64,000 nucleotides of DNA from the NCBI GenBank assembly GCA_963575715.1, contig CAUYTW010000111.1, positions 1 to 64,000 on the forward strand, written 5' to 3'. Source of the stretch: Gammaproteobacteria bacterium. Lineage in GTDB: Bacteria > Pseudomonadota > Gammaproteobacteria > CAIRSR01. Below are positions 65 to 23,477 of this stretch, in pieces; position 1 is the stretch's first letter; every line of letters starts with the position of its first letter. The notes beneath the pieces were generated by a model. The model saw nothing but the letters and a program-made list of their open reading frames with translations, ran no database searches and had not been told where the DNA came from. Both the position numbers and the translations under genes were made by a program.

Positions 65-3000
65 TCAAGGTTGTTTCGGGCCTTCCTCTCCCTGCGTGAG
101 TGCATATCGTTTATTTTTAAAAATATGCAATACGAGCACCAGGAAGAACGGGATAAAGAAGAGATCGATAAACGTGGCGGAAAGCATCCCTCCGGTAACG
201 GCGGTGCCAATGGCCGTCATGGCACCCGCTCCGGCACCGGTCGCAATAGCGAGCGGTAGAACTCCAAAGAAAAAGGCTAATGAAGTCATAATCACTGGAC
301 GCAATCGCAACCTGGCTGCTTCCAGGGTGGCATCGATTAATTGCGCACCGTGCTCCATCCGCTCCAGGGCAAATTGAATGATCAGTATAGCGTTTTTGGT
401 GGTCAGCCCGAGAGTGGTAATGAATCCAATTTGAAAATAGACATCATTGGGCAATCCACGTGACCAACTGGCAAGCGCCGCGCCGAACAGTCCCAAGGGT
501 AACATCAAAAGATTAGTAAAGGGAATTGCCCAGCTTTCGTATAAAGCCGCAACGCACAAAAAGATAACGATCACGGAGAAAGCATATAAAATCGGCGCCT
601 GGGAGCTGGCCATGCGTTCTTGATAAGAAAGTCCGGTCCAGTCAAAACCAATCCCTTCGGGTAATTTGGCGGCAATTTTTTCCATGGCGAGCATCGCGTC
701 CCCGGAACTCCACCCAGGTCTGGCTTCACCCCAAATATTCGCAGACGGAAAGCTATTAAAACGTTCCAACCGTGGTGACCCCTGAAACCAATGTCCTGCG
801 GCAAAAGCGGTAAATGGAGCCATGGTCCCCCCCCGATTGCGAACATAAAGTCGATCCAGATCATTGGGCAACATGCGATAGGGAACATCGCCTTGGATAT
901 ATACCCGTTTGACTCGCCCACCCTGCATGAAATTATTGGCATAGGCACCACCGAAAATTGCGGCGATGGTGGTGTGGATGGATTCAATTGAAACGCCTAA
1001 AGTTCCCGCCTTTTCCCAGTCTACGTCGATTCGGTATTGCGGAACGTCGTCCAATCCATTGGGACGCACCCGAATCAGCCGTGGATCCTGGGCGGCCATA
1101 CCAAGGAGTTGGTTACGCGCCGCCATTAACGCCTCGTGTCCCAAGCCACTCCGATCCTGTAATTGAAAATCAAATCCGCCTGCCTGTCCCAGTTCAAGAA
1201 CCGCAGGTGGTGGGAACGCGAATACCCTAGCATTACGCAATGCCGAGAATTTTCCCATGGCGCGCCCCGCCAGCGCATTGACTTTCAAATCTGATCGGTT
1301 GCGCAGGTCCCAATCCTTGAGTTTAACAAACGCCATGCCGACGTTTTGTCCGGTTCCTGAAAAACTTCTTCCGGCAATCGTAAAACATGACGCCACCGCT
1401 TCCTGTTCATTGGTTAAAAAATGATTGCGAACCTGCGTCATGATATCTTCGGTTTGTTCCAGAGTCGAGCCACTCGGGAGCATTGCCTGGACAAACATGA
1501 CGCCTTGATCTTCGTTGGGTAGGTAGGCGGTGGGCATTTTCCAAAAAAGATATCCCACTGCGGCCACGATTAAAAAATAAATAATAAGGTAGCGCGCTTT
1601 TCTAGAAAATGAATATTGGACCGCACGTGCATAGCGTTCCCTCATGCGAAAAAAGAAATCGTTAAACCATCTAAAAAAGGGACGCATGAAAAAAATCGCG
1701 TTATCCGCAGGTTGGTGGCCAGGTGGTACGGATTTAAGAAGTGAAGCGCAAAGAACAGGAGTCAGGATTAACGCTACCACAACCGAAAGCAACATTGCGG
1801 AAATTAGCGTGATAGAAAATTGGCGATAAATGACTCCGGTAGATCCGCCGAAGAATGCCATTGGCGCGAATACCGCCGAGAGTACCAGCCCAATTCCAAT
1901 CAAGGCACCAGTGATTTCTTTCATCGATTCGCGGGTCGCTTCCTTGGGAGGTAGTCCATTTTCGGTCATGAGCCGTTCCACGTTTTCTACAACGACAATG
2001 GCGTCATCCACCAGAAGGCCAATGGCCAATACCATGGCGAACATCGTCAACATATTGATGGAAAATCCAAATAATCCGAGGATGGCAAAGGTTCCGAGAA
2101 TTACCACAGGCACTGCCAAAGTAGGAATCAGCGTAGCACGAATATTTCCCAGAAATAGGTATATCACCAGAAAGACCAAGAAGACCGCCTCGAACAAAGT
2201 TTTCATCACCTCATGAATGGCCACTTTTACGAAAGGCGTGGTGTCATAGGGATAAATGACTTTCATTCCGGTAGGAAAGTATCTGGACAGCTCATTCATT
2301 TTTGCCTTAACGGCGTCCGCAGTATTCAGGGCATTCGCACCAGGGGCCTGCCGGACAGCCAAAGCGGCGGCAGGTTTTCCGTTAAATAGAATGTGCGTTC
2401 CATAGCGTTCAGTACCCAACTCGGTTCTTGCTACATCCCGCACGCGGACAATCGATCCATCGGAATTGGCGCGTAATGGAATGGCGGCAAATTCCTCGGG
2501 AGTTTTGAGCAGGCTTTGGACGATGATCGAGGCATTCAGGCGTTGTCCTTTTAGCGCCGGTGCTCCGCCGAATTGCCCTGCGGAAATTTCCACGTTGTAA
2601 GCCTGAACCCCGCGTAGTATATCCTCCACCGTTAATTGATAATCCGCCAGCTTATCCGGTTTCAACCAAATCCGCATTGCATATTGACCACCGAAAACTT
2701 CCACTTCACCAACTCCCGGGACACGCGCCAATACTTGTTGAACGCTTGATTGCGCGTAATCTGCCAAATCATAATCATCCGCGCTGGGATCGTCAGAGGT
2801 CAGTCCAACAATAATTAACCAATTTCTCGTCGATTTGCTAACTTTCACGCCTTGACGTTGCACTACGTCCGGCAAGCTCGCCATGGCAAGCTGGAGTTTA
2901 TTTTGGACTTGCGCCCAGGCCAGATCTGGATCAGTTCCCGGCGCGAAGGTTAATTCTATTCTTCCAGCGCCGGATGCATCGCTGGTTGCCGACATGTATA

Positions 3001-3229
3001 ATAGTTTGTCGAATCCAATTAATTTTTGTTCAATAATTTGAACCACGCTGTTTTCAATAGTCTCTGCTGAAGCTCCCGGATAAAAGGCATCAATCGCTAT
3101 AGACGGTGGCGCAATCGGAGGATATTGAGAAATTGGTAAATGGTATATCGCTAACCCACCGGCAAGCATCATGATAATTGCAATCACCCAGGCGAAAACT
3201 GGCCGGTCCAGAAAAAAATTCGATAACAT
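65..3229 (-). CDS. RND multidrug efflux permease, HAE1 (AcrB/MexB) family
   Basis: Inner-membrane proton-driven drug exporter of about 1054 residues, the usual length for AcrB-type pumps. The N-terminus MLSNFFLDRPVFAWVIAI is the family's first membrane segment. The proton-relay residues are visible: paired Asp in LVDDAIVVVENVER (TM4) and Lys in TTKNAILIIQFA (TM10). I chose the ATG at 3229 rather than an in-frame codon 16 residues upstream because GGGGAA sits about 7 bases before it and the family starts at MLSN or MSxF. These pumps work with a periplasmic adaptor and an outer-membrane channel. No adaptor gene lies upstream, where ntrX is divergent; partners could only be beyond position 1 or elsewhere. 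The exported substrate cannot be told from sequence. Confidence 0.93.
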   Translation of the reverse strand: MLSNFFLDRPVFAWVIAIIMMLAGGLAIYHLPISQYPPIAPPSIAIDAFYPGASAETIENSVVQIIEQKLIGFDKLLYMSATSDASGAGRIELTFAPGTDPDLAWAQVQNKLQLAMASLPDVVQRQGVKVSKSTRNWLIIVGLTSDDPSADDYDLADYAQSSVQQVLARVPGVGEVEVFGGQYAMRIWLKPDKLADYQLTVEDILRGVQAYNVEISAGQFGGAPALKGQRLNASIIVQSLLKTPEEFAAIPLRANSDGSIVRVRDVARTELGTERYGTHILFNGKPAAALAVRQAPGANALNTADAVKAKMNELSRYFPTGMKVIYPYDTTPFVKVAIHEVMKTLFEAVFLVFLVIYLFLGNIRATLIPTLAVPVVILGTFAILGLFGFSINMLTMFAMVLAIGLLVDDAIVVVENVERLMTENGLPPKEATRESMKEITGALIGIGLVLSAVFAPMAFFGGSTGVIYRQFSITLISAMLLSVVVALILTPVLCASLLKSVPPGHQPADNAIFFMRPFFRWFNDFFFRMRERYARAVQYSFSRKARYLIIYFLIVAAVGYLFWKMPTAYLPNEDQGVMFVQAMLPSGSTLEQTEDIMTQVRNHFLTNEQEAVASCFTIAGRSFSGTGQNVGMAFVKLKDWDLRNRSDLKVNALAGRAMGKFSALRNARVFAFPPPAVLELGQAGGFDFQLQDRSGLGHEALMAARNQLLGMAAQDPRLIRVRPNGLDDVPQYRIDVDWEKAGTLGVSIESIHTTIAAIFGGAYANNFMQGGRVKRVYIQGDVPYRMLPNDLDRLYVRNRGGTMAPFTAFAAGHWFQGSPRLERFNSFPSANIWGEARPGWSSGDAMLAMEKIAAKLPEGIGFDWTGLSYQERMASSQAPILYAFSVIVIFLCVAALYESWAIPFTNLLMLPLGLFGAALASWSRGLPNDVYFQIGFITTLGLTTKNAILIIQFALERMEHGAQLIDATLEAARLRLRPVIMTSLAFFFGVLPLAIATGAGAGAMTAIGTAVTGGMLSATFIDLFFIPFFLVLVLHIFKNKRYALTQGEEGPKQP

Positions 3230-3443
3230 GCTATATTCCCCATCGGAGCGAAACAACCAATTTTTCCGATTCTTCAAAATTTTCTGATTAAAAAACTTAG
3301 GAATTGGTGATGATTAAAGATAAAGACTTGTCGCAAGATTGGCAGTATAATTCATCATTGTCCGCCGGGCGCATTTCATTGCTTCCCGAGCGTGTTTCTT
3401 CTCCGTGCGTTCCCATTCCACTTTGTGGATATACTTAAACGCC

Positions 3444-4811
3444 ATGACCGCTCCCTATATTTTGGTAGTAGACGACGAACCCGATATTCGTGCTCTCGTT
3501 AAAGAAATTCTTGAAGACGAAGGATATGAGGTTTGCATCGCGGAAAATGGTGGTCAAGCGCGGGAACGGCGACGCGAGCGGCGACCAGATTTAGTGTTGC
3601 TCGATATTTGGATGCCGGATGTGGATGGAATCACCCTCCTGAAGGAATGGTCAAGTGAGGAGGGAGCAAGGATTCCCGTCATCATGATGTCCGGGCATGG
3701 TACGGTAGAGACCGCAGTCGAGGCGACCAGAAGCGGGGCTTACGATTTCCTGGAAAAACCTCTTTCTATGGCCAAGCTCCTCCTCACCGTGGAACGCGCA
3801 CTGGAAAATGCCCGTCTTCAGCGCGAAAACCTGGGATTACGTCGTCGCGCTGCCACTATGGCCGATCCAATCGGGCGTAGTCCAGTAATGCTGCAACTAC
3901 GGGAACAGGTCAAGCGGATCGCTGGTCACGATACTTCAGTGCTCATCAACGGCGAACCTGGCACTGGTAAGGAGGTCATTGCCCGCTATTTACACGCCAA
4001 TAGCATGCGTCGGGCCAATTCTTTCGTCGATGTCGCGGTGGCTTCCATTGTGCGCGAAAACGCCGCCGTGGAGTTATTCGGTCTCGAAGAGGGAGAACGC
4101 ATCCACTACGGACATCTTGAGCAAGCCCGTGGCGGAATTCTTTTTCTCAATGATATCGCTGATATGGATCTTGCTACCCAAGGGCGACTACTTTCAGCCC
4201 TGGAAAGTCGTTTCTTTCTGCGGGTAGGAGGTGCCGAACCCATCCAGGTTAATGTTCGGGTCGTGGCCTCCACCCACCATGACCTCGAAGAGGATGTCAA
4301 CGAAGGACGTTTTCGTGAAGATCTTTATTACCACCTGAACGTGGTGCCAATCAGAGTACCTCCATTGCGCGAGCACTGCGAGGATGTTCCAGACCTGATT
4401 AGTTATTACCTCAACTTGTTCGTGAATCAGGAAGGACTCCCCTACCGTGGCTTTTCAGTGGCGATTCAAAATCGGCTGAGAAATCATTCCTGGCCTGGTA
4501 ACGTGCGCGAACTCAAGAATCTGGTCCAGCGGTTACTCATTTTAGGATCAGGCCCTGAGGTTGAATTGGAAGAATTAGAACAGGCACTAGGTAGTCCACG
4601 ACGGGTTATGCTTCCTGAACCCGATGAATCGAATTGGCTTGACTTGCCATTGCGCGACGCGCGCGATACGTTTGAAAAAGCTTATCTGGAGCACCATCTG
4701 CGGCTGTCGGGGGGCAATGTGGCGCGTCTAGCCAAGCAAACCGGAATGGAACGCACTCATCTTTATCGCAAGTTGCGAGCGCTAGGCATTGAGGTCAGAA
4801 ACAAGGTTTAA
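3444..4811 (+). CDS. ntrX: NtrX-type sigma-54-family response regulator
   Basis: DNA-binding response regulator of 455 residues. The receiver domain (1-120) has acidic pair D10/D11, phospho-acceptor D54 in LLDIWMPDVDG and Lys in LEKPLS. The AAA+ domain has Walker A GEPGTGKE. The C-terminus carries a Fis-type helix-turn-helix (SGGNVARLAKQTGMERTHLY). The GAFTGA loop that contacts sigma-54 is absent: after ELFGLEEG the chain reads ERIHYGHLEQARGG. Walker B is LFLND instead of the usual LFLDE. Both traits are known in NtrX proteins, which often do not activate sigma-54 promoters. The start at MTAPYILVVDDEPD was preferred over one 13 codons upstream because receiver domains begin there. The usual partner kinase gene ntrY is not adjacent, so this is an orphan in the window. 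Confidence 0.88.
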   Translation: MTAPYILVVDDEPDIRALVKEILEDEGYEVCIAENGGQARERRRERRPDLVLLDIWMPDVDGITLLKEWSSEEGARIPVIMMSGHGTVETAVEATRSGAYDFLEKPLSMAKLLLTVERALENARLQRENLGLRRRAATMADPIGRSPVMLQLREQVKRIAGHDTSVLINGEPGTGKEVIARYLHANSMRRANSFVDVAVASIVRENAAVELFGLEEGERIHYGHLEQARGGILFLNDIADMDLATQGRLLSALESRFFLRVGGAEPIQVNVRVVASTHHDLEEDVNEGRFREDLYYHLNVVPIRVPPLREHCEDVPDLISYYLNLFVNQEGLPYRGFSVAIQNRLRNHSWPGNVRELKNLVQRLLILGSGPEVELEELEQALGSPRRVMLPEPDESNWLDLPLRDARDTFEKAYLEHHLRLSGGNVARLAKQTGMERTHLYRKLRALGIEVRNKV

Positions 4812-4876
4812 ACTCGACTTGATACATAAGCCAGAAAAAGTTCAAATAATTTTTTCAAATGTTATGCAGGTTAGGA

Positions 4877-4999
4877 GGCGCAAGCCGAGTTGCCCTTACA
4901 GGCTGACAGCCGGGAAAGACCGGCTCCTAATTCTGAAAACCGCCCGCTTTCCTCTCTGCCCGGCTAAAGCCGGGGTGGCTCTCTCGCCGGCATTTGGTG
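4877..4999 (+). repeat. Palindromic dispersed repeat R1, copy a
   Basis: This stretch between ntrX and hrpA shares with the copy at 28268 the left edge GGCGCAAG-CGAGTTGCC, CTTACAGGCTG and GCCGGGAAAGACCG, then a TTTCCTCT segment and the hairpin GGCTAAAGCC. It ends just before the hrpA stop codon. The strong stems may act as a transcription terminator for the converging genes. Its family is described in the findings. Confidence 0.7.
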
Positions 5000-5000
5000 A

Positions 5001-8000
5001 TTAATCAAAATAAATACCCGTCCACGCTTTCTCTACTCGTTTCTCCGAAACTGGAATTGCTGTTTTAATCTCCTGCGCGAACAGTGATATCCGCCATTCT
5101 TCCAGCATCCAACGCAATTCTTCCAATTTAGGATGATGAATATCTGCTCGCGTTCGCTCCAGAAAACGTGCCCACCAGGGAGCGATTTCCGCCAGACGTT
5201 CACGGTCGCGGGTGGGCTGATCTCGCATTTTTTCCAAGCGTAGCACCATCGCTTTTAGATAACGCGGATAATGACGCAGACGCGCGATGGGCGTAGTGGC
5301 GATAAAGCCAGGATAAATCAAGGAGTTCAGTTGACTACGCAGGTCTTCATAAGATTCACGGCGTGCGGGAACATCCTTGCAAATTTCAATAGTGACCTGA
5401 TGATAATCGTCAAGAATCGCTGTGATCAGGCGTGAAATCTCCGCCGCTGTTGGTTCGAGACGGGCGCGGCCAGCGATAAGGCGAGCTTGAAAGGTCGCAG
5501 CGTCGCGGATGTCGGCATCGTCGGCGAGGAAAGCGGCGTCCAGGGCAGCGGTAAGAATTTCCTGTTTGAGGGCGAGTGCTCCGCCGTGCGGGGTGTAGGC
5601 CAGGTTGGTTGCGCGGCTGATGGCAAGATTGCGTTCCAGATGGCGGACTTGGGCAGGACTTGCCACGGCAAACAGGCGGCGCAATCCGGCGCGATGTGCC
5701 CGCGTTGCGCCCGCGACGGTGTCGAACAGGCGCAGGGCTATACGACCATTTTCTTCCTCAGCCAAGGCTGGATAGGCGAATATCGTCATACCCCTGCCGG
5801 GTAATTCTATTCGCTCCGGTAATGAACCGAAATCCCAGGTGATAATCGATTCGCGTTCATGGTGATTTTTAGCTAGTTCACGAAAAGACTGTTCCGCCTG
5901 TCCACCCAATATCGTGCGTAAATTGGTTAAATTACGATCCTCGGCGAGCACTTGGCGCTCATTGCTTAATATACGAAAGCCCATGCGTAAATGAATTGGT
6001 AGATCGTCAATGCGAAAAGCCGTGGCTGGAACCTCGACGCCGCTTACTCGTTGCAGAAAACGTGCGAGCGCGACGCACAAGGGAATCGCTTCACGGGTTT
6101 TTGGATCGGCAAAAGTTTCGTAAGCAGCGTGGACGTAATCCGGGACCGGAATAAAATTGACCCGTAAAGGCTTAGGCAGGGAACGCAACAGGAAAGTGAG
6201 TTTTTCCGCCAGCAGTCCAGGAACCAAATAATCGTGGTGATAATCCTGAATACGCGGTAGGAGTGCGATCGGAACTTCGAGAGTAACGCCATCATCCGCC
6301 GCGCCCGGCTCGAAACGATAAGTGAGCGCAAGATCGGTACCATCCACGGTAAGATGGTCGGGGAAACGTTCGGCGGTAATGCTCGTCCCTGCTTCGCGCA
6401 TTAGGGTATCGCGGTCTAGGTATAGGAAACGAAGATTCTTGCGTTCCGCCTCGCGTCGCCAACTTTCAAAACCAGGATGGTCGTGGATTTCCTCGGGAAT
6501 CCGTTCATCATAAAAACTGTGAATGATTTGCTCGTCTACCAGGACATCGCGCCGCCGCGATTTGTGTTCGAGATCCTCGATTTCTGCAATTAACGCTTGG
6601 TTGTGCTGGAAAAAGGGTGCCTTGGTAGCGTAATCGCCCTGGACCAAAGCACCACGGATAAATAATTCGCGGGCCACGACCGGATCAATCGGACCATAAT
6701 CAATGCGGCGCTGGGTGACAATCGGTAAGCCATACAGTGTGACTTGTTCCATGGCCACTACTCGGCCCTGACGTTTTTCCCAATGCGGATCAGAATAATT
6801 ACGGCGGATTAAATGCTGGGCGAGGGCTTCAATCCATTCAGGTTCAATGCGGGCTACTCCCCGCGCGTAAACTTTCGTGGTCTCGACAATTTCGGCAGCA
6901 ATCAGCCAACGCGGCGTTTTTTTGAATAATCCCGAGCCGGGAAAAATACTGAATTGAATACCCCGCGCTCCAAGATAGTTTTTTTTATTTTCCTTCTTTT
7001 CTTTTTCTTTCTCCTTGTCGCCTTTTTCTTGATTTTGGAATTGCAGCATCCCGACCCGCGATAATAAACCGGTCAGCAAGGCGCGATGCAAGGCTTCATA
7101 AGAAGCCGGCGTCGCATTGAGGGTGAATTTTAATTCCGTGGCGATGTCGGCGAGCTGGGAACGTAGATCCGCCCATTCCTGCATGCGGTTATAGGAAAGA
7201 AACTGATCATGACAGAAACGGCGCAGGGCATTTTTAGCCGGTTGATCTACCTGAGCCTTGGCATAAAAATTCCAGAGCTTGAGCCAGGCGACAAAATCAG
7301 AATGTTCGTCATGAAAACGCCGATGCTTTTCATCGGCATTGTCACGCGCCTGCAACGGACGCTCGCGCGGGTCTTGAATCGCCAAGGCCGCCGCGATGGT
7401 CAGCACTTCTTCCAGCGCGTTCTCCTTGGAAGCGGCGAGCACCATTCGCCCGAGACGCGGGTCTACCGGCAGACGGGCGAGCTGATGGCCGAGGTCGGTA
7501 AGCGCTCGTGCGGCGTCAAGGGCCTGAAGTTCCTGAAGAGTTTGATAGCCCTCGGTAATTGAACGCGGCTGGGGCGGCTCAATGAATGGGAAATCCTCCG
7601 GCTCGCCTAGCCCGAGATCCTTCATGCGCAGGATTACGGCGGCGAGGGAACTGCGTTTAATCTCGGGGTCGGTATAGGCGGAGCGGTCGCGGTAATCAGC
7701 TTCGCTGTAAAGGCGCACGCAGACGCCGGGGCCGACCCGCCCGCAGCGGCCTTTGCGCTGATCGGCGCTGGCGCGGGAAATCGGCTCGATACGCAAGCGG
7801 CTGACTTGCGAGCGTGGGCTGTAACGATTAATGCGTGCGAATCCAGTATCGATGACGGTGCGCACGCCCGGAATGGTCAGCGAGGTCTCGGCGACGTTGG
7901 TGGCGAGCACGATCTGCAGCAGTCCGCTTCGTTGAAAGACCCGCGCCTGTTCCGTCGCCGACAGCCGCGCATGAAGCGGCAAAATCAAAACCTGATCCAG

Positions 8001-9006: not shown

Positions 9007-9025
9007 TAGGAGTTACGCAGTTGAA
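9007..9025 (+). repeat. Direct repeat at left edge of the RM island
   Basis: The sequence TAGGAGTTACGCAGTTGAA occurs here and identically at 23108-23126, in the same orientation, enclosing the whole restriction-modification island. GAGTTAC here is followed 12 bases later by GTAACTC, making a small inverted repeat. It resembles insertion-sequence ends in general style, but no transposase is present. It could be an attachment or recombination site or the remnant of an IS pair. Confidence 0.7.
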
Positions 9026-9125: not shown

Positions 9126-9548
9126 ATGATCGACTATGAGAAACTTCAAAAATCTCTCGAACATCTGGAGCGGCAGTTTGCCAACTATCAGATGTCACAG
9201 GATCGCCCAGAACTCACGGATCTGGACCGCGAGGCTATTGCTGAATCCGTCATCCAACGTTTCAAGACTTGCTACGACACCTTGTGGAAAGACCTTAAAC
9301 GCTACCTCATCGAAGAAACCGGATTGTCGGATATTCCAAATAGCCCCAAGCCCATTCTCAAGTTAGCGGGTCAAAATGATCTCTTTGCCTCCCCGGTCGA
9401 GCAGTGGTTGAAGTATGCCGACGCCCGCACCGGCACCGCGCATGATTACAGCGGAGAAAAGGCGGCGGAAGCATTGCTGATCGTCAAAGACTTTATTGAT
9501 GATGCCATCGGGCTTTATCAAACAATGACGGGAACGACTTGGGAATGA
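9126..9548 (+). CDS. HEPN-domain protein, HepT-like toxin (nucleotidyltransferase substrate-binding family)
   Basis: A 140-residue all-helical protein with the HEPN RNase signature R-x4-H-x-Y seen as RTGTAHDY (R101, H106, Y108). It resembles the HI0074/HepT family, in which the toxin cleaves RNA and the paired MNT protein silences it by adding AMP to the motif tyrosine. The start at MIDYEKL was chosen over an upstream in-frame codon, because the extra 27 residues would be read out of a palindromic leader. Its stop overlaps the MNT start as ATGA, so the pair is translationally coupled. It is not closely similar to the HEPN at 15449 although both sit before an MNT gene and an hsdS. Confidence 0.85.
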   Translation: MIDYEKLQKSLEHLERQFANYQMSQDRPELTDLDREAIAESVIQRFKTCYDTLWKDLKRYLIEETGLSDIPNSPKPILKLAGQNDLFASPVEQWLKYADARTGTAHDYSGEKAAEALLIVKDFIDDAIGLYQTMTGTTWE

Positions 9549-11113
9549 CGACCGCCATCGACATCACGACGGAGCAACGAAAAATACTGCTTGCGTTCCT
9601 GCGACAATTCATCCCCGGCGTTGTCGTGTGGGCCTATGGCTCGCGGGTGAAATGGACAGCACGGATTAATTCTGACCTTGATCTCGTGGTGTTCGCTACT
9701 CCTGCCCAACGTTCCTTGGTTTCTGAACTCAAAGACGCTCTGGCGGAAAGCAATCTTCCTTTCCTTGTTGACCTCCACATTTGGGACGACGTGCCCGAAC
9801 GTTTTCACGAGATTATTCGCAAGGAATATGTCGTGCTTCAGGAGGTAGAGGAGAAATCAGGGGGCTGGGTTATGGCGGGTGATTTGTGGATAAAAACTAC
9901 GATTGGTGAGCAAGCCACGCTTCAGCGAGGTATCGATATTACAAAGGCAGAACAGCGCGATGGTAAAGTGCCCGTTGTTTCATCTGGGGGTATATCAAGT
10001 TATCATGATACAGCAGCGGTAAATGGTCCTGGAGTTATTCTTGGAAGAAAAGGAGTTGTCGGAAGTGTTTTCTTTGTTAATGAAGACTACTGGCCACATG
10101 ATACAAGCCTTTGGGTAAAGGATTTTCACAGAAATTATCCTCGTTTCGTCTATTATTTCTTCAAATCTGTTGCTCCGCAAATTGCTAAGATGGATGTTGG
10201 GTCTGCGAATCCAACACTAAATCGCAATCATGTTCATCCGCTACCGATCATTTGGCCCCCCCTCCCCACCCAAAAAGCCATCGCGCATATTCTTGGCACG
10301 CTGGATGACAAGATCGAATTAAACCGGCGCATGAATGCAACGTTGGAGGCAATGGCGCGAGCAATTTTCAAGTCGTGGTTCGTGGATTTCGATCCGGTGC
10401 GCGCCAAAATGGACGGGCGTGTGCCTTTTGGAATGGATGAGGAAACGGCGACGTTGTTTCCCGATGGTTTTCAGGATTCGGAGTTGGGGTTGATTCCGAG
10501 GGGGTGGGGGGTAAAAATGATTAGAGATATTGGGAATATTATCTGCGGAAAAACACCACCAACCAAAATTTCAAAATACTACGGAGATGATATTCAATTC
10601 ATTACCATTCCTGACATGCACGGAAATATTTTTGTTATAGAGACAGCTCGAAAATTATCTTATGCTGGAGCGAATTTACAGGATAATAAAACTATCCCTC
10701 CTGAAAGCATATGTGTTAGTTGTATTGCGACACCCGGATTGGTGATAATTACCTCGGAAAATTCACAGACTAACCAACAAATAAATTCTATTGTTCCTTA
10801 CGCAAAGGATGAGACGTATTTTTGGTATTGGGTCATGACCGGTCTTGGCACTGAAATTGCCGCTAATGGAAGTGGCGGGTCGGTGTTAATAAACCTTAGT
10901 AAAGGTAGATTTGAAACACTTCAAGTCATTCAACCGCCGCACTCCCTCATTTGCGCTTACCACACCGCAGTGCGCCCGTTGTTTGAAACCATCCTCGCGA
11001 ACACCCACCAATCCCGCACCCTCGCCACCCTACGCGATACGTTGCTGCCGAAATTATTGAGCGGTGAATTGAGCGTGGCGGCTATGGAATCAAAAATTGA
11101 TATTGCTAATTAA
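9545..11113 (+). CDS. hsdS: MNT nucleotidyltransferase domain in one frame with type I specificity subunit HsdS
   Basis: One 522-residue reading frame with two parts. Residues 1-105 are a minimal nucleotidyltransferase (MntA-like antitoxin): GS at 32-33 and Asp at 44 and 46 form the GSx10DxD motif, with a third acid in FLVDLH. From about residue 110 it is a type I RM specificity subunit: first target domain, conserved block LPTQKAIAHILGTLDDKIEL, central FKSWFVDFDPVRAK, second target domain, and C-terminal block ATLRDTLLPKLLSGELSVA. An internal ATG at 9872, preceded by GGGGG, matches the start region of the second hsdS (16682), so HsdS may also be made alone. The fusion could be genuine, or result from a deletion that joined the two genes. 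It has no adjacent hsdM; the one at 13836 could serve both. Confidence 0.85.
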   Translation: MTTAIDITTEQRKILLAFLRQFIPGVVVWAYGSRVKWTARINSDLDLVVFATPAQRSLVSELKDALAESNLPFLVDLHIWDDVPERFHEIIRKEYVVLQEVEEKSGGWVMAGDLWIKTTIGEQATLQRGIDITKAEQRDGKVPVVSSGGISSYHDTAAVNGPGVILGRKGVVGSVFFVNEDYWPHDTSLWVKDFHRNYPRFVYYFFKSVAPQIAKMDVGSANPTLNRNHVHPLPIIWPPLPTQKAIAHILGTLDDKIELNRRMNATLEAMARAIFKSWFVDFDPVRAKMDGRVPFGMDEETATLFPDGFQDSELGLIPRGWGVKMIRDIGNIICGKTPPTKISKYYGDDIQFITIPDMHGNIFVIETARKLSYAGANLQDNKTIPPESICVSCIATPGLVIITSENSQTNQQINSIVPYAKDETYFWYWVMTGLGTEIAANGSGGSVLINLSKGRFETLQVIQPPHSLICAYHTAVRPLFETILANTHQSRTLATLRDTLLPKLLSGELSVAAMESKIDIAN

Positions 11114-11116
11114 ACC

Positions 11117-11422
11117 ATGCCAAAACTTTACGAATACTTTGGGCTGATTGTGATGTTCTATGCCAATGAACATGAACCGGTACATGTGCATGGCAAATGC
11201 CAAGGCCGAGAATGTCGCGCTGAAATTATCATGCAAAATGGTGTTGTCGTTGAAATTCGCTACAGTCCTGTTTCTGGACGACTCCCGCTGACTCCCCACG
11301 AAATGCGTAATTTTGAAGAAATTGTCAGCGTTCGTGCGGAAGAAATTATTACAAAATGGATCGACTTTTTCGTTTTGAATAAACCTGTCAAACCGGAACA
11401 TATTACTCAGAGGCTCAAATGA
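11117..11422 (+). CDS. DUF4160 domain protein
   Basis: A 101-residue protein with the DUF4160 pattern: an N-terminal YFGLIVMFYANEHEPVHVH strand with conserved His, then a central strand and a helix reaching EIITKWIDFF. The function is unknown. DUF4160 is commonly found next to DUF2442, as here with a 4-bp overlap, and the pair is often suspected to be a toxin-antitoxin or addiction-like module. It starts 4 bases after the hsdS stop, so it is probably co-transcribed with it. Confidence 0.8.
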   Translation: MPKLYEYFGLIVMFYANEHEPVHVHGKCQGRECRAEIIMQNGVVVEIRYSPVSGRLPLTPHEMRNFEEIVSVRAEEIITKWIDFFVLNKPVKPEHITQRLK

Positions 11423-11700
11423 TTCCTGCCATTATTAATATTATCAGCGCCGAACATATAAAGGACTACCGTATTCGTTTAGGTTTTGACGATAGCACGG
11501 AGCAAATCGTCGATTTTCAGCCTTTTCTATCACATGCCCGCCATCCCGATATTCGGGCTTGGCTTGATCCGGCACGGTTTATGACGTTTCGTCTCGAATA
11601 TGGCGAATTAGTTTGGGGCGATTATGCGCTTTGTTTTCCAATCGCTGACTTGTATCGCAACCAAATTGAGCCACATGTTTTGCTTAAAACAGCGGCTTGA
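11419..11700 (+). CDS. DUF2442 domain protein
   Basis: A 93-residue protein of the DUF2442 type, recognised by RIRLGFDDSTEQIVDFQPFL and the ELVWGDYALCFPIADLY ending. It overlaps the DUF4160 gene by ATGA and so forms a coupled pair with it. The molecular role is not known. The frame ends exactly where the 18-bp island box (11701) begins, so the pair looks like a discrete cassette. Confidence 0.8.
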   Translation: MIPAIINIISAEHIKDYRIRLGFDDSTEQIVDFQPFLSHARHPDIRAWLDPARFMTFRLEYGELVWGDYALCFPIADLYRNQIEPHVLLKTAA

Positions 11701-11718
11701 GCATGGCGAGCAACAAAA
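11701..11718 (+). repeat. Cassette-boundary box, copy 1
   Basis: GCATGGCGAGCAACAAAA occurs here and identically at 19250-19267. In both places it comes just after an accessory gene pair that follows hsdS, and just before a stray hsdS 3'-end fragment. This suggests a shared module boundary or recombination point. Confidence 0.7.
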
Positions 11719-11728
11719 AATAAAATCC

Positions 11729-11779
11729 CATGCGCGACACGCTGCTGCCGAAATTATTGAGCGGGGAATTGAGCGTGGC
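11729..11779 (+). pseudogene. hsdS 3'-end fragment, copy 1
   Basis: About 50 bases match the hsdS codons for RDTLLPKLLSGELSVA found at the ends of both intact hsdS genes (11030-11085 and 17925-17980). No upstream hsdS body is attached. It appears to be the original end of an hsdS gene left behind when a cassette entered, or a duplicated end created by recombination. Confidence 0.75.
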
Positions 11780-11824
11780 TTCTTTTTTATCCCCAAATTA
11801 CAAAGAGGACAAAGAGGATTAAAA

Positions 11825-12877
11825 ATGTACAAAACAATTGCCTTGTTTAACCATAAGGGAGGAGTCAGCAAGACGACCACGACATTCCATCTTGGTTGGA
11901 TGCTGGCGGAAAAAGGATACCGGGTCGTGATGATTGATACTGATCCACAGTGCAATCTTAGTGGTTTAGTGATTGATTACGATTCATCAAAAGAATTTGA
12001 TTCTTTTTATTCAGATCATCCTAATGCCAATATAAAAACGGCGTTGGCTCCGGCATTTGAGTCTCAGCCGAAACCTATTGAAACGATTGAATGCGTTGAA
12101 GCAACAGGTAGGTCTGGACTTTTTCTTGTTCCCGGTCATGTGAATCTCAGCGAATATGAGGTCACGTTGGGAATAGCGCAAGAACTATCCGGATCCATTC
12201 AAGCATTAAAGAATTTACCTGGCGCATTTCATTTTTTTGTGCAACAAATGGCCACCGCGCAAAAAGCCGATTACGTTCTAATTGACATGAGTCCTAGCCT
12301 TGGAGCAATGAATCAAAATATTCTCATGACCAGCGATTACTTTTTAGTGCCTACAGCACCGGACTACTTCAGCGTCATGGCTATTGATTCACTTTCTAAC
12401 ATTTTACCAAAATGGATCGAATGGGCGAAGAAAGCAGCGAACGCTGAAGTTTTTAAGTCTGCAAATTATCCGTTTCCTGAATTTTCGCTCAAATTTCTCG
12501 GTACGGTCATTCAAAGATATCGCCCTCGACAATCAAAACCGACGGTAGGATTTCAGAAATGGATTGATCAAATAAACTCAGGAGTCGTAAGCAGATTAGC
12601 ACCCGCATTAAAAAAGCATGGTGCCATATTGTCTTCAACCATTTACAAAGCAGCAAACGTAAATGAGAGCATGGGCTATTGTTTATCAGAAATTCCTGAT
12701 TTTAATTCTTTAATCACAGCATCACAAAATCACCAAACACCCGTATTTGCTCTTACTGAGGATATGCTCGGTCATGTTGGGACTGTGTTAGATCAGGATA
12801 TAAAAAAGCGTGATGAATTTAGAAATACATTTGATACCTTAGTTAATCGTATCATTACCCTTACAAACCATGAATAG
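11825..12877 (+). CDS. ParA-family ATPase paired with a HEPN protein
   Basis: A 350-residue P-loop ATPase with the deviant Walker A HKGGVSKTTTT (K11, K16), MIDTDPQCNLSG and VLIDMSPSLGAMNQN, as in ParA/Soj/MinD proteins. ParA proteins normally drive DNA partition, but no parB or origin is nearby. Its stop overlaps the start of a HEPN gene, which suggests a toxin-like pair. The ATG at 11825 was chosen because the Walker A starts at residue 10, as usual for the family; the longer upstream frame runs through the hsdS fragment and DUF2442. A broken copy of its 5' third lies at 23143. Confidence 0.85.
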   Translation: MYKTIALFNHKGGVSKTTTTFHLGWMLAEKGYRVVMIDTDPQCNLSGLVIDYDSSKEFDSFYSDHPNANIKTALAPAFESQPKPIETIECVEATGRSGLFLVPGHVNLSEYEVTLGIAQELSGSIQALKNLPGAFHFFVQQMATAQKADYVLIDMSPSLGAMNQNILMTSDYFLVPTAPDYFSVMAIDSLSNILPKWIEWAKKAANAEVFKSANYPFPEFSLKFLGTVIQRYRPRQSKPTVGFQKWIDQINSGVVSRLAPALKKHGAILSSTIYKAANVNESMGYCLSEIPDFNSLITASQNHQTPVFALTEDMLGHVGTVLDQDIKKRDEFRNTFDTLVNRIITLTNHE

Positions 12878-13481
12878 CGCACTACAGCAGTTTCGTACTA
12901 ATCTTTTGCGTGCCCGTGAATTGGGTACACTCGCGCTTGCAATGGCCAAAATTACCACGTCTGCAATCGATGTGAGTGATATGTGGCGTGCTCAAATTGT
13001 CTTAGGTGTGAGTGCTCTTGATTATTTAATTCATGAATTAACTCGAATAGGAATGATAGAGATATCGAAAGGATCCCGACTCAAGACCGATTCATTTTCA
13101 AAATTCAAGTTGCCATTGGATGCTATTGAGCATGGGTTTAATGGACAACCACATGAAATGTGGCTTGGAGAAACGGTTCGTGAGATGCACTCATCATTTA
13201 GCTTTCAACAGCCTGACAAAATTGCTGATGCTATTCGTTTAATTTCGCATGCCAAGTTATGGGATGAAGTCGGAAAAGAATTATCAATGCCTGCCAAAGA
13301 AGTAAAACTTCGCCTTGGATTGATTGTAGACCGCAGAAATAAAATTGCGCATGAATCTGATATGGATCCAACGAATCCTGGCTTTCGTTGGCCTATTAGT
13401 GAAACGATGGCAAATGATTCGCTTGATTTTATTGAACGAATCGCAGAAGCCATATGTAAGATAGTCATCTTATGCCCTTGA
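12870..13481 (+). CDS. HEPN-domain protein (RiboL-PSP-HEPN-like) coupled to the ParA gene
   Basis: A 203-residue helical protein with the motif DRRNKIAHESD, containing R156-x4-H161, the catalytic signature of HEPN RNases of the RiboL-PSP class. It overlaps the ParA gene by 8 bases. HEPN proteins with this motif are often RNA-cutting toxins or defence effectors, so a model in which the ATPase controls the HEPN is reasonable, but it is inferred. The last codons run into the hsdR remnant that starts at 13472, so the natural C-terminus may have been altered. Confidence 0.72.
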   Translation: MNSALQQFRTNLLRARELGTLALAMAKITTSAIDVSDMWRAQIVLGVSALDYLIHELTRIGMIEISKGSRLKTDSFSKFKLPLDAIEHGFNGQPHEMWLGETVREMHSSFSFQQPDKIADAIRLISHAKLWDEVGKELSMPAKEVKLRLGLIVDRRNKIAHESDMDPTNPGFRWPISETMANDSLDFIERIAEAICKIVILCP

Positions 13482-13764
13482 AGAAGCCACCCTGGGCTGG
13501 CTCTTATGATGCTCTTTTGCGAATGAATCCGCCGTGAAGGCAATGGAAGACGACAAGTTGAAAGTGATAGCGGCGGAACTCATCACCCAGGTGAGAAAGA
13601 GCGTAACTATTGACTGGACGCTGCGGGAAGGTGCGCGGGCAAAAATTCGGGTGATGGTAAAACGCATTCTGAATAAATACGGCTATCCGCCAGACCTTCA
13701 GGAAAAGGCAGCGCAAACCGTTCTTGCACAGGCGGAGTTACTTTGTGCAAATTGGACAAGTTAG
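13472..13764 (+). pseudogene. hsdR: Internally deleted hsdR remnant
   Basis: The 5' end matches the start of the intact hsdR (ATGCCC, then TTGAAGAAGCCACCCTGG as at 20033-20051). It then jumps straight to the last ~250 bases of hsdR (matching 22846-23104). About 2.8 kb is missing, and the reading frame is shifted by one base near TTTTGCG. The C-terminal codons are otherwise almost identical to intact hsdR, including the end of the gene at GGACAAGTTA. It is a dead copy and shows that a second hsdR once stood between the ParA/HEPN pair and hsdM. Confidence 0.88.
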
Positions 13765-13779
13765 CAATTAATATTGCTC

Positions 13780-13835: not shown

Positions 13836-15452
13836 ATGGCGAAAAATAAATTAAGCAAAAATAATAACGAAGGGTCTGCAAATCTCGGATTTGAGGCTAA
13901 ACTTTGGCTCGCAGCCGATAAGCTCCGCAATAACATGGATGCGGCGGAATACAAACACGTTGTTCTCGGCCTTATCTTCCTGAAATACATCTCGGATACT
14001 TTCGAGGAACACCGCGCAACGCTAATTGCCGGTCAGGGTGAGTATGAAGGTGCAAATCCAGAAGACCCGGACGAATACAGAGCCGAGAATGTCTTTTGGG
14101 TGCCGACGGTTGCCCGCTGGCCTCACCTCCAAGCTAACGCCAAGCAGCCAACTATTGGCAAGCTCGTTGATGACGCCATGGTTGCCATTGAGAGCGACAA
14201 CCCGCGACTCAAAGGGGTTCTGCCCAAAGACTACGCCCGCCCTGGCTTGGACAAGCAGCGTCTTGGCGAACTCATTGATTTGATTGCAACGATTGTCCTG
14301 ACCGCCGCCAATGAAGGCGAGAAGACCCACCGCTCAGTCGATCTCCTTGGTCGTGTGTATGAGTATTTCCTAACCCGTTTTGCCAGCGCCGAGGGCAAAA
14401 ACGGCGGCCAGTTCTACACGCCGTCCTGTGTCGTGCGCTGCCTGGTCGAGATGCTCGGCCCCTACAAAGGCCGTATCTACGACCCCTGCTGTGGCTCGGG
14501 CGGCATGTTTGTTCAGTCGGAAAAGTTCGTGGAGGCCCACGGGGGCAAAATCGGCGATATCGCTATTTATGGCCAAGAAAGTAACTCCACCACTCGCCGC
14601 CTGGCCATTATGAATCTGGCCATTCGTGGCATTGAGGCCGACTTCGGCCCCGAACACGCCGATACCTTCCGCCACGATCTTCATCCCGATCTGCGCGCCG
14701 ATTATGTCCTTGCCAATCCTCCTTTCAACGACTCCGACTGGTTCCGCAAGGACGACGATGTACGCTGGCAATTCGGTGTTCCGCCCAAGGGCAACGCCAA
14801 CTTCGCCTGGGTGCAGCACTTCATCCACCACCTTGCGCCCGCAGGCATAGCCGGCTTCGTCCTTGCCAATGGCAGCATGTCCTCCAACCAGTCCGGTGAA
14901 GGCGACATCCGCAAAGCGCTCATTGAGGCCGATCTGGTCGATTGCATGGTCGCGCTCCCCGGCCAGCTTTTTTATTCCACGCAAATTCCCGTTTGTCTTT
15001 GGTTTGTAGCGAAGAACAAAACCGCCGACGCGAAACGCAATTTCCGTGACCGTCGTCAACAGACGCTATTCATCGATGCCCGCAAACTTGGCACATTAAT
15101 GGATCGCGTCCATCGTGAATTGACCGACGCCGATCTGGAAAAAATCACCACCACTTATCATCATTGGCGCGGAGAACAAGTCGCGGGCCAATACTTGGAT
15201 ATTCCAGGCTTTTGTAAGTCCGCCACTACTGCTGAAATCGCCACGCATGGATTCGTCCTCACGCCGGGTCGTTATGTGGGCGCGGAAGAAATCGAAGATG
15301 ACGGAGAACTCTTTGAAGAAAAAATGGCGCGGTTAGTGGCGGAGTTAACCGGACAATTTGCTGAATCCGCAAAATTGGAGAAACAAATTAAACAAAATTT
15401 TATGCAATTGGGATTCATTCAATCACAAATACCACAATCACAAATACCATGA
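13836..15452 (+). CDS. hsdM: Type I restriction-modification methyltransferase subunit HsdM
   Basis: N6-adenine methyltransferase subunit of 538 residues. The N-terminal helical HsdM_N domain ([20 protein letters not shown]) is followed by the SAM-binding motif [10 protein letters not shown] (about residue 216) and the catalytic motif NPPF (about residue 293). With HsdS it methylates the host site; with HsdR it forms the restriction complex. The last residues repeat [10 protein letters not shown], a small in-frame duplication. The stop overlaps the next gene (HEPN) as ATGA, so the toxin-like genes are translated from the same message. Confidence 0.95.
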
Positions 15453-15886
15453 ACTTGAATACCGATCACCTCAAACGCTGTATTGATACCTTGCACTCGT
15501 CGCTTTTGTGTTATGAGCAGGCTGCATCGGACAGCATCCATCAGGAGATTTTCCGCAATGCTATTGTCAAGGGTTACGAATTAACGCAAGAAATCAGCTT
15601 CAAGCTTTTAAAGAAATCGCTACGTGATTACGGACATAGTGCAAAAAAATTGGATGCCACACCCATCAAGGAATTGTTACGCCTGGCTGCCACGCACGGA
15701 TTCATGACGCTGGAGGAAGTCGAGCGCTGGTTCGTCTATCGTGATAATCGCAATAACACCGCCCATGACTACGGCGAAAACTTCGCCATGCAAACGTTAC
15801 GCTTGATCCCTAATTTTATTAATGACGTAACGCGGCTCGAATCTCTATTGCGCCTCCGCTACAGCGCAGGAAATGACAATGGCTGA
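15449..15886 (+). CDS. HEPN-domain protein, HepT-like toxin, inside the hsdM-hsdS operon
   Basis: A 145-residue nucleotidyltransferase substrate-binding (HI0074-type) protein. The RNase motif is RNNTAHDY (R101, H106, Y108), spaced as in HepT, and the long first helices are typical. It starts inside the hsdM stop codon, and its own stop lies inside the start region of the MNT gene, so all three are coupled. It falls in the same family as the HEPN at 9126 but the sequences differ widely outside the motif, so the two pairs are not recent duplicates. Confidence 0.87.
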
Positions 15887-16202
15887 ACGGGCGCTGGAAC
15901 AATTAGATATGCAACCTCGGCATTTGGCGTTATTACGCGAATTGTTGCGTCAGCATCTGCCGCACACAGAAATATGGGCCTACGGCAGCCGTGTTAATGG
16001 CGACGGGCACGAAGCCAGCGATCTTGATTTGGTTGTACGTCATCCCGCCGACTTAAAACAGGAAACGCCCGCCTTGTGGGAAATGAAAGATATTTTGGTG
16101 GAAAGTAATCTGCCGATTCGTGTAGACCTAGTTGATTGGGCGCAGATTCCGGCTAGTTTTCATCGTGAGATTGAGCGGGCCTATGTGGTGGTGCAGCAGT
16201 AG
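15879..16202 (+). CDS. MNT-domain nucleotidyltransferase, MntA-like antitoxin
   Basis: A 107-residue minimal nucleotidyltransferase. AYGSRVNGDG with GS at 36-37 and SDLDL with Asp at 48 and 50 make the GSx10DxD motif, and VDLVDW supplies the third acid. MntA-type proteins add AMP to the tyrosine of the partner HEPN and so block its RNase. I chose the ATG at 15879 over 15873 because AGGAA lies about 8 bases before it. In contrast to its counterpart at 9545, this one ends with a normal TAG and is not joined to hsdS. Confidence 0.87.
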   Translation: MAERALEQLDMQPRHLALLRELLRQHLPHTEIWAYGSRVNGDGHEASDLDLVVRHPADLKQETPALWEMKDILVESNLPIRVDLVDWAQIPASFHREIERAYVVVQQ

Positions 16203-16212
16203 GAGGAAGAAT

Positions 16213-16623
16213 ATGTATCAAGATTTGCTCCGTGATTTTATGAATAAGCAAAATTTAGGTGGTAAGGCGTGGGAACATGCTTTTATCATCGATCTTCTAA
16301 ATAAATATCCTATTCAGGATTGCTCCATTCATTGTTTCCATTACCAACAGATGTTGGAATGCTTGTTTAAGCATATTTTAGAAACGAAAACCGAACTCAC
16401 TCTTTATTCTAAAACGCACGATTTGAATAAATTGTTAGAGCAAGTCATTAGTTCGACTGCGTTCAAAACCGATAAATCTAAATATCGTGGCGATTTAATC
16501 GGTATTACCGTATGCGCTGCGGAATATAGATATAATTTTGATATCAATTGTAAAACGTATTTTGAAATGGTCAGCGTGTGTGATAATTTATTGAACGAGT
16601 TAATTATTTTTGAAAAATCATAA
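16213..16623 (+). CDS. Second HEPN-domain protein between MNT and hsdS
   Basis: A 136-residue protein with HEPN-fold features: CFHYQQMLECLFKHIL followed by THDLNKLLEQV, and AAEYRYNF near the end. These match the stand-alone HEPN (PF05168) pattern that normally accompanies a nucleotidyltransferase. The R-x4-6-H RNase motif is not visible, so it may be a non-catalytic or regulatory HEPN. GGAGG at 16202, 7 bases before the ATG, is the strongest ribosome site in the operon. The equivalent position upstream of the other hsdS has no such gene; homologous sequence resumes at GAAATCAGG, 10-30 bases before each hsdS ATG. Confidence 0.7.
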   Translation: MYQDLLRDFMNKQNLGGKAWEHAFIIDLLNKYPIQDCSIHCFHYQQMLECLFKHILETKTELTLYSKTHDLNKLLEQVISSTAFKTDKSKYRGDLIGITVCAAEYRYNFDINCKTYFEMVSVCDNLLNELIIFEKS

Positions 16624-16681
16624 TAGCAACATTATTGAGCAGGATAAGGTGGTGATTCAGAAATCAGGAAGGGGGCGTGGT

Positions 16682-18001
16682 ATGGCGGCGAAGCTCTTGG
16701 AAACAACCGTTGGTGAAGTCTGCAAAATCTTCGATGGTCCTCACGCAACGCCAACGAGAATTGATTCTGGTCCCATATTTTTGGGGATAACTAGTCTGAA
16801 CAAGGGACGTATTGATCTATCCACAAGTGACCATGTTTCAGAAGAGGACTTCGTAAAATGGACTCGTCGAGTGATACCGCAACCAGATGATGTCGTATTT
16901 TCTTATGAGACCAAGTTAGGTGAGGCCGCGATTATCCCAAAAGGTCTTCGATGCTGTCTTGGTCGGCGTATGGGGTTGATGCGACCAGACTCAAAAAAAA
17001 TAGATAGCCGCTTTCTGCTCTACTACTACCTCGGTCCTGAATTTCAAGATGTGATTCGTGAACGCACAATCCATGGAAGTACGGTCGAGAGAATAGCTTT
17101 AATTGAGTTTCCAACGTTTCCACTAAGAATCCCCCCCCTCCCCATTCAAAAAGCCATCGCCCACATCCTCGGTACGCTGGACGACAAAATCGAATTAAAC
17201 CGGCGAATGAATGCAACGCTGGAGGAAATGGCGCGGGCAATTTTCAAGTCGTGGTTCGTGGATTTCGATCCGGTACGCGCAAAAATGGACGGGCGGGTGC
17301 CTTTTGGAATGGATGAGGAAACGGCGGCGTTGTTTCCCGATGGTTTTCAGGATTCGGAGTTGGGGCAGATTCCGAGGGGGTGGAGGGTAACAACACTGGG
17401 CGCGTGTATTGGTTTTCGGAGTGGTTTCTCTTTCAAAAGTCAGGATTGGCAGGACTCGGGAGTTCCAGTCGTAAAAATTGGCTCGGTCAAGCCGGGCATC
17501 ATCGACCTGACCCAAGTCAGTTACGTTTCAGAGGAAATTGCTCAACAAGCCGCACGCTATCGCTTGAGCACTGGCGATATGCTTATCGGAATGACGGGCT
17601 ACGTGGGCGAAGTGGGTCTTGTTCCGCCATCGAACAATCCGCCTTTGCTGAATCAGCGAGTCGGTAAGTTCGTAATGGCAACACCGGGAACTGCATCCTT
17701 GGCATTTTGGTATTGCACGACCAGGCAACCTGAATTTAAGACATTCGTTGAAACGCACTCACATGGCACAGCTCAGGCGAACGTAAGCGGTGAATCCATC
17801 ATGGAATTTCCGCTGGTAGTGCCGCATTCTGCAATTCTCGATGGATTCAACCGCAACTGTCAGCCGTTACTCAACCGCATTCTCGCCAACCACGGAGAAT
17901 CCCACACCCTCGCCGCCCTGCGCGACACACTACTGCCGAAATTATTGAGCGGGGAATTGAGCGTGGCGGCTATGGAATCAAAAATGGGAACCAATGTATG
18001 A
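16682..18001 (+). CDS. hsdS: Type I restriction-modification specificity subunit HsdS
   Basis: A 439-residue DNA-recognition subunit with two target-recognition domains separated by the conserved spacer (LPIQKAIAHILGTLDDKIEL, FKSWFVDFDPVRAK) and closed by ALRDTLLPKLLSGELSVA. The spacer and end are almost identical to those of the HsdS at 9872, but both target domains differ, so another DNA site is recognised. I chose the ATG at 16682 (GGGGG 6 bases upstream) over a longer frame that overlaps the HEPN gene. Its stop overlaps the next gene as ATGA. Confidence 0.92.
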   Translation: MAAKLLETTVGEVCKIFDGPHATPTRIDSGPIFLGITSLNKGRIDLSTSDHVSEEDFVKWTRRVIPQPDDVVFSYETKLGEAAIIPKGLRCCLGRRMGLMRPDSKKIDSRFLLYYYLGPEFQDVIRERTIHGSTVERIALIEFPTFPLRIPPLPIQKAIAHILGTLDDKIELNRRMNATLEEMARAIFKSWFVDFDPVRAKMDGRVPFGMDEETAALFPDGFQDSELGQIPRGWRVTTLGACIGFRSGFSFKSQDWQDSGVPVVKIGSVKPGIIDLTQVSYVSEEIAQQAARYRLSTGDMLIGMTGYVGEVGLVPPSNNPPLLNQRVGKFVMATPGTASLAFWYCTTRQPEFKTFVETHSHGTAQANVSGESIMEFPLVVPHSAILDGFNRNCQPLLNRILANHGESHTLAALRDTLLPKLLSGELSVAAMESKMGTNV

Positions 18002-18447
18002 ATCAAACCGATTTTGAGGCGCTGTTAAGCGATACGACAAAGTGTATAGTCAATGACATTACTTGGATGGATGACGAGGATCATTCACCAACATTGGAAT
18101 TTAGGGTTGAAGTGAAATCAGATGCGGGGTATCCGATTTTCATTAAGGGTAGCTACAACACGCTTGCAAGCACATTAAGTTATACGCTGATTCATCGTGG
18201 CAGTGGTCGAATTTATGCATTGGATCTCGGCAAGGATCATCATAATCCAAGCTGTACTAATACGGGCGAAAAACACAAACATCGTTGGAATGAGCCAGTA
18301 CGTGATAAAGAAGCCTATGTGCCGGATGATATTACCGCACCATTAAATGATCCCGTCGCGGTCTGGAAGCAATTCTGCGTAGAGGCCAGTATTCAACACA
18401 ACGGCGTACTGTATCCGCCGCAACCTTACCAGATGATTATCTTATGA
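17998..18447 (+). CDS. Hypothetical protein, DUF6978-like
   Basis: A 149-residue soluble protein. The segment LGKDHHNPS...GEKHKHRWNEP and the ending DDITAPLNDPVAVWKQFC resemble DUF6978 proteins, which are of unknown function and are often coded beside DUF1828 proteins. The His-rich centre could bind metal, but this is only suggested. It is coupled to hsdS upstream and to the DUF1828 gene downstream by ATGA overlaps. Confidence 0.65.
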   Translation: MNQTDFEALLSDTTKCIVNDITWMDDEDHSPTLEFRVEVKSDAGYPIFIKGSYNTLASTLSYTLIHRGSGRIYALDLGKDHHNPSCTNTGEKHKHRWNEPVRDKEAYVPDDITAPLNDPVAVWKQFCVEASIQHNGVLYPPQPYQMIIL

Positions 18448-19214: not shown

Positions 19215-19249
19215 GCCACCAAAGTTGCACGGCAACCCAATACCGGCTG

Positions 19250-19267
19250 GCATGGCGAGCAACAAAA
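19250..19267 (+). repeat. Cassette-boundary box, copy 2
   Basis: Identical to the 18-base box at 11701-11718 and in the same relation to its surroundings: after the accessory pair, before an hsdS 3'-end fragment. Similarity continues for a few A-rich bases after the box. Confidence 0.7.
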
Positions 19268-19279
19268 CAAAACTATAAA

Positions 19280-19323
19280 ACCCCTGCTGCTGCCGATGCC
19301 GAAATTATTGAGCGGGGAATTGA
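19280..19323 (+). pseudogene. hsdS 3'-end fragment, copy 2
   Basis: The stretch CTGCTGCCGATGCCGAAATT and the following ATTGAGCGGGGAATTGA match the LLPKLLSGEL end of hsdS, with a small internal duplication (CTGCCGATGCCG). It cannot be translated as part of any hsdS. It mirrors the fragment at 11729. Confidence 0.7.
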
Positions 19324-23468: not shown

Positions 23469-23477
23469 CCAGTGCTT

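Follow-up and report, generated by a model that had tools for sequence, protein, structure and literature searches.

HepT/MntA toxin-antitoxin pairs (class I HEPN/MNT, type VII) are known from Shewanella SO_3166/SO_3165 and from HI0073/HI0074. Those MntA antitoxins that have been characterized inactivate HepT by covalently adenylylating the tyrosine of its RX4HXY motif; in Shewanella HepT, this motif supplies the RNase residues as well as the tyrosine that is adenylylated (PMC7641770). Passages of PMC2701414 suggest that MNT-HEPN may have a DNA-binding partner. Immunity loci, according to passages of PMC3506569, seem to be without typical antitoxins, and the hypothesis put forward there is that immunity components may inhibit linked toxins. 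The precedent for an RM enzyme restraining a linked toxin is PrrC, an anticodon nuclease held by the type Ic RM enzyme EcoprrI (passages of PMC3710099 and PMC12707154). RM linkage of HEPN families is also recorded in a HEPN census, the consulted sections of which contain no fusion to HsdS (PMC3710099).

Here, we describe a locus in which an MNT domain forms the N-terminus of the type I specificity subunit HsdS (MNT::HsdS). It lies in a stretch of 64,000 nucleotides from a Gammaproteobacteria bacterium (contig CAUYTW010000111.1), referred to below as the window. As in HepT/MntA, a PF08780 HEPN protein with RX4HXY is encoded beside an MNT with GSX10DXD and a third Asp, in adjacent overlapping genes, and the predicted MNT fold matches 8xeo, 7bxo, and HI0073. 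However, the MNT of HepT/MntA is a free protein of 80 to 150 amino acids, whereas here it is part of HsdS, the HEPN gene comes first, and the pair lies within an hsd locus. The fusion resembles type I HsdS in its two TRDs, its two conserved helical regions, and the nearby hsdM and hsdR, and differs from it by an additional catalytic MNT domain of ~100 residues. By analogy, PrrC-EcoprrI also has a HEPN-fold RNase toxin inside an hsd locus and a proposed restraint by RM. PrrC is an ABC-ATPase plus ACNase, whereas the HEPN protein here (HEPN1) has no ABC ATPase domain; and contact with the RM complex is noncovalent there, whereas we propose an enzymatic antitoxin built into HsdS. The hsdM-HEPN-MNT-hsdS-hsdR operons of Acetobacter plasmids have the same families in the same order, but there MNT and HsdS are encoded by two overlapping genes and made as separate proteins. 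No description of MNT::HsdS was found in the openly accessible full-text literature or in the consulted parts of HEPN, TA, BREX, and RM papers. Within this scope, the fusion as such seems to be previously undescribed.

An MNT domain in one frame with a full HsdS

The toxin and fusion genes consist of the following features.

9126 to 9548, + strand: HEPN toxin (HEPN1), HepT/HI0074-like, single domain, 140 aa (PF08780, E 3.4e-18; PDB relative HI0074, 1jog)
9545 to 9841, + strand: MNT antitoxin domain, residues 1 to 99 of the fusion (Pfam Polbeta domain PF18765 at residues 27 to 98, E 1.2e-7; HI0073 1no5, E 8.7e-20; AF2 fold)
9842 to 9889, + strand: linker, residues 100 to 115 (AF2 pLDDT <50 at 103 to 110; leader common to hsdS2 16660-16684)
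9872 to 11113, + strand: HsdS1, with TRD1, a central conserved region (10256-10517), TRD2, and a 3' conserved region (Pfam Methylase_S, PF01420, in two stretches behind MNT, E 4.8e-35; PADLOC Specificity_I, E 1.5e-114)

ORF analysis of the window gave a single stop-free frame on the + strand from the ATG at 9545 to the TAA ending at 11113, encoding 522 amino acids. The product comprises a complete MNT domain, a flexible linker of ~16 residues, and a full two-TRD type I HsdS with both Methylase_S/TRD units and the central and C-terminal conserved helices. Its MNT catalytic set is complete (G32, S33, D44, D46, and the third Asp, D76), and the GSX10DXD motif reads GSRVKWTARINSDLD. In the AF2 model (pLDDT 91.6), MNT and HsdS are both folded, residues 103 to 110 are predicted to be disordered, and MNT adjoins TRD1 on a flexible tether. 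Foldseek matched the MNT part of this model to HI0073 (1no5; TM 0.91, 1.6 Å), with further matches to the MNT antitoxin 8xeo, MntA 7bxo, and HsdS structures. HEPN1 lies directly upstream, overlaps the fusion gene by ATGA, and has RX4HXY as R101..H106..Y108 (RTGTAHDY). Both partners score below curated cut-offs: 28.6 versus 60 bits for the MNT with NCBIfam MntA_antitoxin, and 48.0 versus 55.8 bits for HEPN1 with TIGR01987 (HI0074).

The open frame and the Pfam domains bear out the original prediction of an MNT domain in frame with a full HsdS; the GSX10DXD motif that it described is present, and the HEPN toxin partner that it placed at 9126 has the PF08780 match and a full RX4HXY. Both parts of the protein are known families, and, judged from sequence, the MNT::HsdS fusion is real, recurrent, and functionally constrained. 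The MNT domain would act as an antitoxin within the fusion, and the window protein is presumably made as one chain.

The junction and the internal start

Within the linker, an internal ATG at 9872 is preceded by a G-rich leader, and the second hsdS of the window (ATG 16682) has a matching one. The block common to the two leaders starts at GAAATCAGG, exactly where the hsdS-homologous sequence had been said to resume, and the match supports the alternative start that had been proposed at 9872. With its plausible ribosome site, this start could allow a separate HsdS to be made in the window. Such an HsdS-only product would still leave MNT made only within the fusion.

The idea that one base had been lost from a stop at the junction, CAGGAG(T)AG, was not supported by comparison. 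The closest relative, L068 (71% identical MNT), has no stop at that point: its sequence there is CAGGAACAGGAAGAC, QEQEDVLKDIGHGE*, reading through the site as QEQEDVLKDIGHGE before stopping. We therefore reject loss of a TAG at 9838-9845 by frameshift.

A gain or loss of one base in the G5 run before ATG 9872 would split the ORF into an MNT protein (112 to 115 aa) and HsdS. This is the main caveat on the window case, as the fusion might then be an assembly or sequencing error in this run, joining an MNT gene and an hsdS that are truly separate; it is consistent with this that the nearest MNT relatives are unfused and that HsdS could be started by itself from the hsdS leader that is still present. 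Nevertheless, we consider such an error highly improbable, because the homopolymer is short and the same fusion occurs at 44 other loci, including a complete plasmid on which it is annotated as one protein.

MNT::HsdS in at least eight phyla

We searched plasmids by tblastn with the MNT domain, scanned 84,980 genomes (best 80 loci), and used class and phylum samples and local HMMs. At least 44 further MNT::HsdS loci were found, giving 45 distinct loci including the window. They come from at least eight phyla, with representatives in Gamma- and Alphaproteobacteria, Nitrospira, Acidobacteria, Verrucomicrobia, Kiritimatiellae, Bacteroidota, Planctomycetota (Brocadiaceae), and Actinomycetota. Fused genes were present in about 6 of 369 class-sample genomes and 12 of 399 phylum-sample genomes, both of which are lower bounds given the narrow HMM and short contigs. 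HEPN is adjacent in nearly all 45 loci, usually with hsdM and hsdR, and the usual gene order is hsdM-HEPN-MNT::hsdS-hsdR. No phage-borne copies were found in phage records or viral contigs. One further candidate (L151, genome G043) was rejected, as the long ORF over its MNT match is a chance read-in.

The tblastn search recovered the fusion on pZMOB01, a complete plasmid of Zymomonas mobilis ATCC 10988. The order there is hsdM (at the end of the circular record), a HI0074-type HEPN, a 527-aa protein that starts with MNT, and hsdR; the 527-aa fusion is annotated as one protein, 'restriction endonuclease subunit S', and its gene lacks an internal start. The original prediction had looked to a second genome with the same fusion, and the recurrence at 44 further loci supports its idea that the antidote is tied to the DNA-recognition subunit.

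MNT::HsdS sequences are already in databases but are filed as plain HsdS. This follows from the PADLOC profile PDLC03138 (Specificity_I, 485 aa), which aligns with the fusion over its whole length and, at its N-terminus, with the unfused second MNT of the window (MNT2), and was thus evidently built from such fusions. The profile is labeled just as a type I specificity subunit, with no mention of an antitoxin part. The recurrence of the fusion shows that many proteins annotated plainly as HsdS carry a second predicted enzyme that has gone unremarked.

Constraint on the fused antitoxin

GSX10DXD and the third Asp are kept in all 45 fusions, and RX4HXY is kept in 42 of the 44 adjacent HEPN proteins, the two exceptions being an insertion in L077 and a Tyr-to-Asn change in L090. 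At one locus, L074, the MNT is fused but no HEPN was detected. Between related fused genes, MNT dN/dS ranges from 0.07 to 0.27, which indicates at the sequence level that the MNT of fused genes is under purifying selection. The MNT domains of related fused genes are 83 to 89% identical, compared with 9 to 22% for TRD1 and TRD2; MNT thus belongs to the constant scaffold around which specificity is exchanged. An internal start is retained in the window and some other loci. In about ten loci (for example, L031, L075, L080, L087, L092, L102, L104, and L112), the stretch from the end of MNT to the first HsdS strand lacks any ATG, GTG, or TTG, so their HsdS can be produced only as a fusion.

Repeated origins of the fusion

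Fused MNT domains are scattered over the MNT tree, with at least five changes between fused and unfused states forced by supported branches. A single origin of all fusions was rejected (AU test, P = 2e-189), and part of the changes may be fissions. The window MNT falls within a supported set of seven (99/87) whose other six members are unfused; this places its fusion apart from the main fused groups. Among these unfused relatives, two, L069 and L073, have hsdM fragments (3193-3309 and 1-120, respectively) just upstream of free HEPN-MNT pairs. Because these fragments are retained upstream of an unfused pair, fission after decay of the RM locus may have occurred in the window clade. At both loci, the HEPN-MNT pair appears to outlive a decayed RM locus.

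It is conceivable that the fusion provides expression coupling only: the frames merged because the two genes are neighbors in one operon and overlap at their ends, MNT is an ordinary antitoxin with an HsdS tail and senses no complex, and the toxin-antitoxin pair stabilizes the RM locus mainly by co-inheritance. The many separate fusion origins, the internal start retained in the window and some loci, and the unfused Acetobacter plasmid versions of the same order, in which MNT and hsdS overlap by 8 bases, would all fit this explanation. We nevertheless regard it as rather unlikely, since fusions recur often, persist over deep divergence under purifying selection, survive repeated TRD exchange, and in many cases have no internal start at all.

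Several loci depart from the usual arrangement. In L185 (genome G385), HsdM begins with an in-frame second MNT at its N-terminus (3575-5692, a 706-aa ORF), encoded behind its own HEPN; downstream, at 6064-6879, an MNT is fused to an HsdS that has kept its conserved regions and is without both TRDs. L150 (genome G009; 1242-5490) has a divergent hsdM-HEPN-MNT::HsdS operon, and immediately behind it lies the gene for a 774-aa PrrC/RloC-type AAA_13 ATPase (PADLOC PDC-S06), so that the locus may be doubly guarded. At L028, a PF08780 HEPN gene (4291-4704, − strand) lies between the hsdM and hsdS of a second RM operon in its genome with no MNT, and its RX4HXY is lost.

A candidate guard of the restriction complex

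We favor a reading in which the protein is a bifunctional HsdS and toxin-adenylylating antitoxin, with the toxin guarding the restriction system or acting as its addiction module, and consider the chances of this reading about even. The HsdS part would assemble with HsdM and direct DNA recognition, carrying an MntA-type adenylyltransferase on a flexible N-terminal tether. MNT would adenylylate Tyr108 in the RX4HXY of the HEPN1 RNase and so render the toxin inert. The toxin is encoded first in the operon and would have to be followed by the HsdS polypeptide to be disarmed; with the antitoxin built into HsdS, disarming of new toxin would last only while intact HsdS is made and kept. Were HsdS lost, left untranslated, or degraded, or were an antirestriction factor to block it, newly made HEPN would be active and the cell would arrest, and this, we infer, is the release trigger. 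The original prediction, that loss or displacement of HsdS frees the toxin, stands for newly made toxin, which would be left unmodified. It fails for toxin already modified: adenylylation is covalent, so displacement of HsdS alone would not reactivate it (PMC7641770).

HEPN-MNT carried on the methyltransferase might instead serve localization or control of restriction, adjusting the assembly or activity of HsdM/HsdR or bringing an RNase to foreign DNA while it is transcribed. The predicted position of MNT next to TRD1 would suit such a role. So would the second MNT of L185, fused to HsdM, where the point may be to touch the modification complex and not to recognize DNA, and the possible DNA-binding component of MNT-HEPN proposed by Makarova 2009 (passages of PMC2701414). 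Yet the HEPN at nearly all loci keeps the toxin and adenylylation motif, as expected of a toxin-antitoxin pair, and we find this explanation improbable.

Returning to the bifunctional protein, we propose tentatively, and with a little less assurance than for bifunctionality itself, that HsdS carries an adenylyltransferase that silences a HEPN RNase, such that modification of the toxin would report enzymatically on the state of the restriction complex. If so, antivirus immunity would be physically tied to a growth-arrest switch, in a direct and repeatedly evolved case of an immunity component inhibiting a linked toxin (passages of PMC3506569). That an antitoxin is recurrently fused to the subunit that reads DNA singles out the state of the RM complex as a concrete candidate, and gives the immunity-suicide coupling hypothesis of that paper a ready test in a cultured laboratory strain, Zymomonas mobilis ATCC 10988.

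Two related RM copies in the window

The fusion gene belongs to the first of two related RM copies within 9 to 23 kb of the window, the remainder of which comprises the following features.

13475 to 13768, + strand: hsdR remnant of the first RM copy, internally deleted, with start and end only (repeats D7 and D3; T1RH-like_C, E 1.1e-30)
13836 to 15452, + strand: HsdM, the only intact hsdM seen within 9 to 24 kb (PF02384, E 2.9e-105; PF12161)
15449 to 15886, + strand: HEPN2 toxin, RX4HXY as RNNTAHDY (PF08780, E 8.6e-19)
15873 to 16202, + strand: MNT2 antitoxin, unfused, stop TAG at 16200 (PF01909, E 1.8e-10)
16213 to 16623, + strand: possible third HEPN, class II-like (PF05168, E 0.0012; 19.4 bits, below the 22-bit cut-off)
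16682 to 18001, + strand: HsdS2, unfused, with different TRDs (PF01420, E 1.7e-21)
20009 to 23104, + strand: HsdR (PADLOC REase_I, 1122 bits)

The central regions of HsdS1 and HsdS2 are 92% identical in DNA and the 3' regions 91%, whereas the TRDs are unrelated. In the first copy, hsdM is missing and hsdR is reduced to its two ends, with HEPN-MNT::HsdS intact; this would be expected if a locus that retains the toxin cannot lose the antitoxin part. HsdM and HsdR for a type I system are both present in the window. Since HsdS1 and HsdS2 have their conserved regions in common, one HsdM could serve both, and HsdS1 plausibly uses the HsdM of the second copy (13836-15452), the likely partner of both subunits.

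Both RM copies are bounded by an exact 19-bp direct repeat (9007-9025 and 23108-23126) that could be an insertion or recombination boundary. Copies of the conserved hsdS 3' end flank small accessory genes at 11041-11772 (DUF4160/DUF2442) and 17929-19323 (DUF6978/DUF1828), which suggests that accessory modules may enter at the hsdS 3' end by recombination. At 11822-13481, a gene for a ParA-like ATPase overlaps a RiboL-PSP-type HEPN gene; the two resemble a ParA/HEPN toxin-antitoxin pair predicted in a section of PMC3710099, and a ParA fragment (23143-23471) lies behind the intact hsdR. The candidate HEPN at 16213-16623, between MNT2 and hsdS2, would give the order HEPN-MNT-HEPN ahead of the second hsdS. 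Between hsdS2 and hsdR, a PemK/MazF-like toxin gene (19347-19673) is encoded on the opposite (−) strand.
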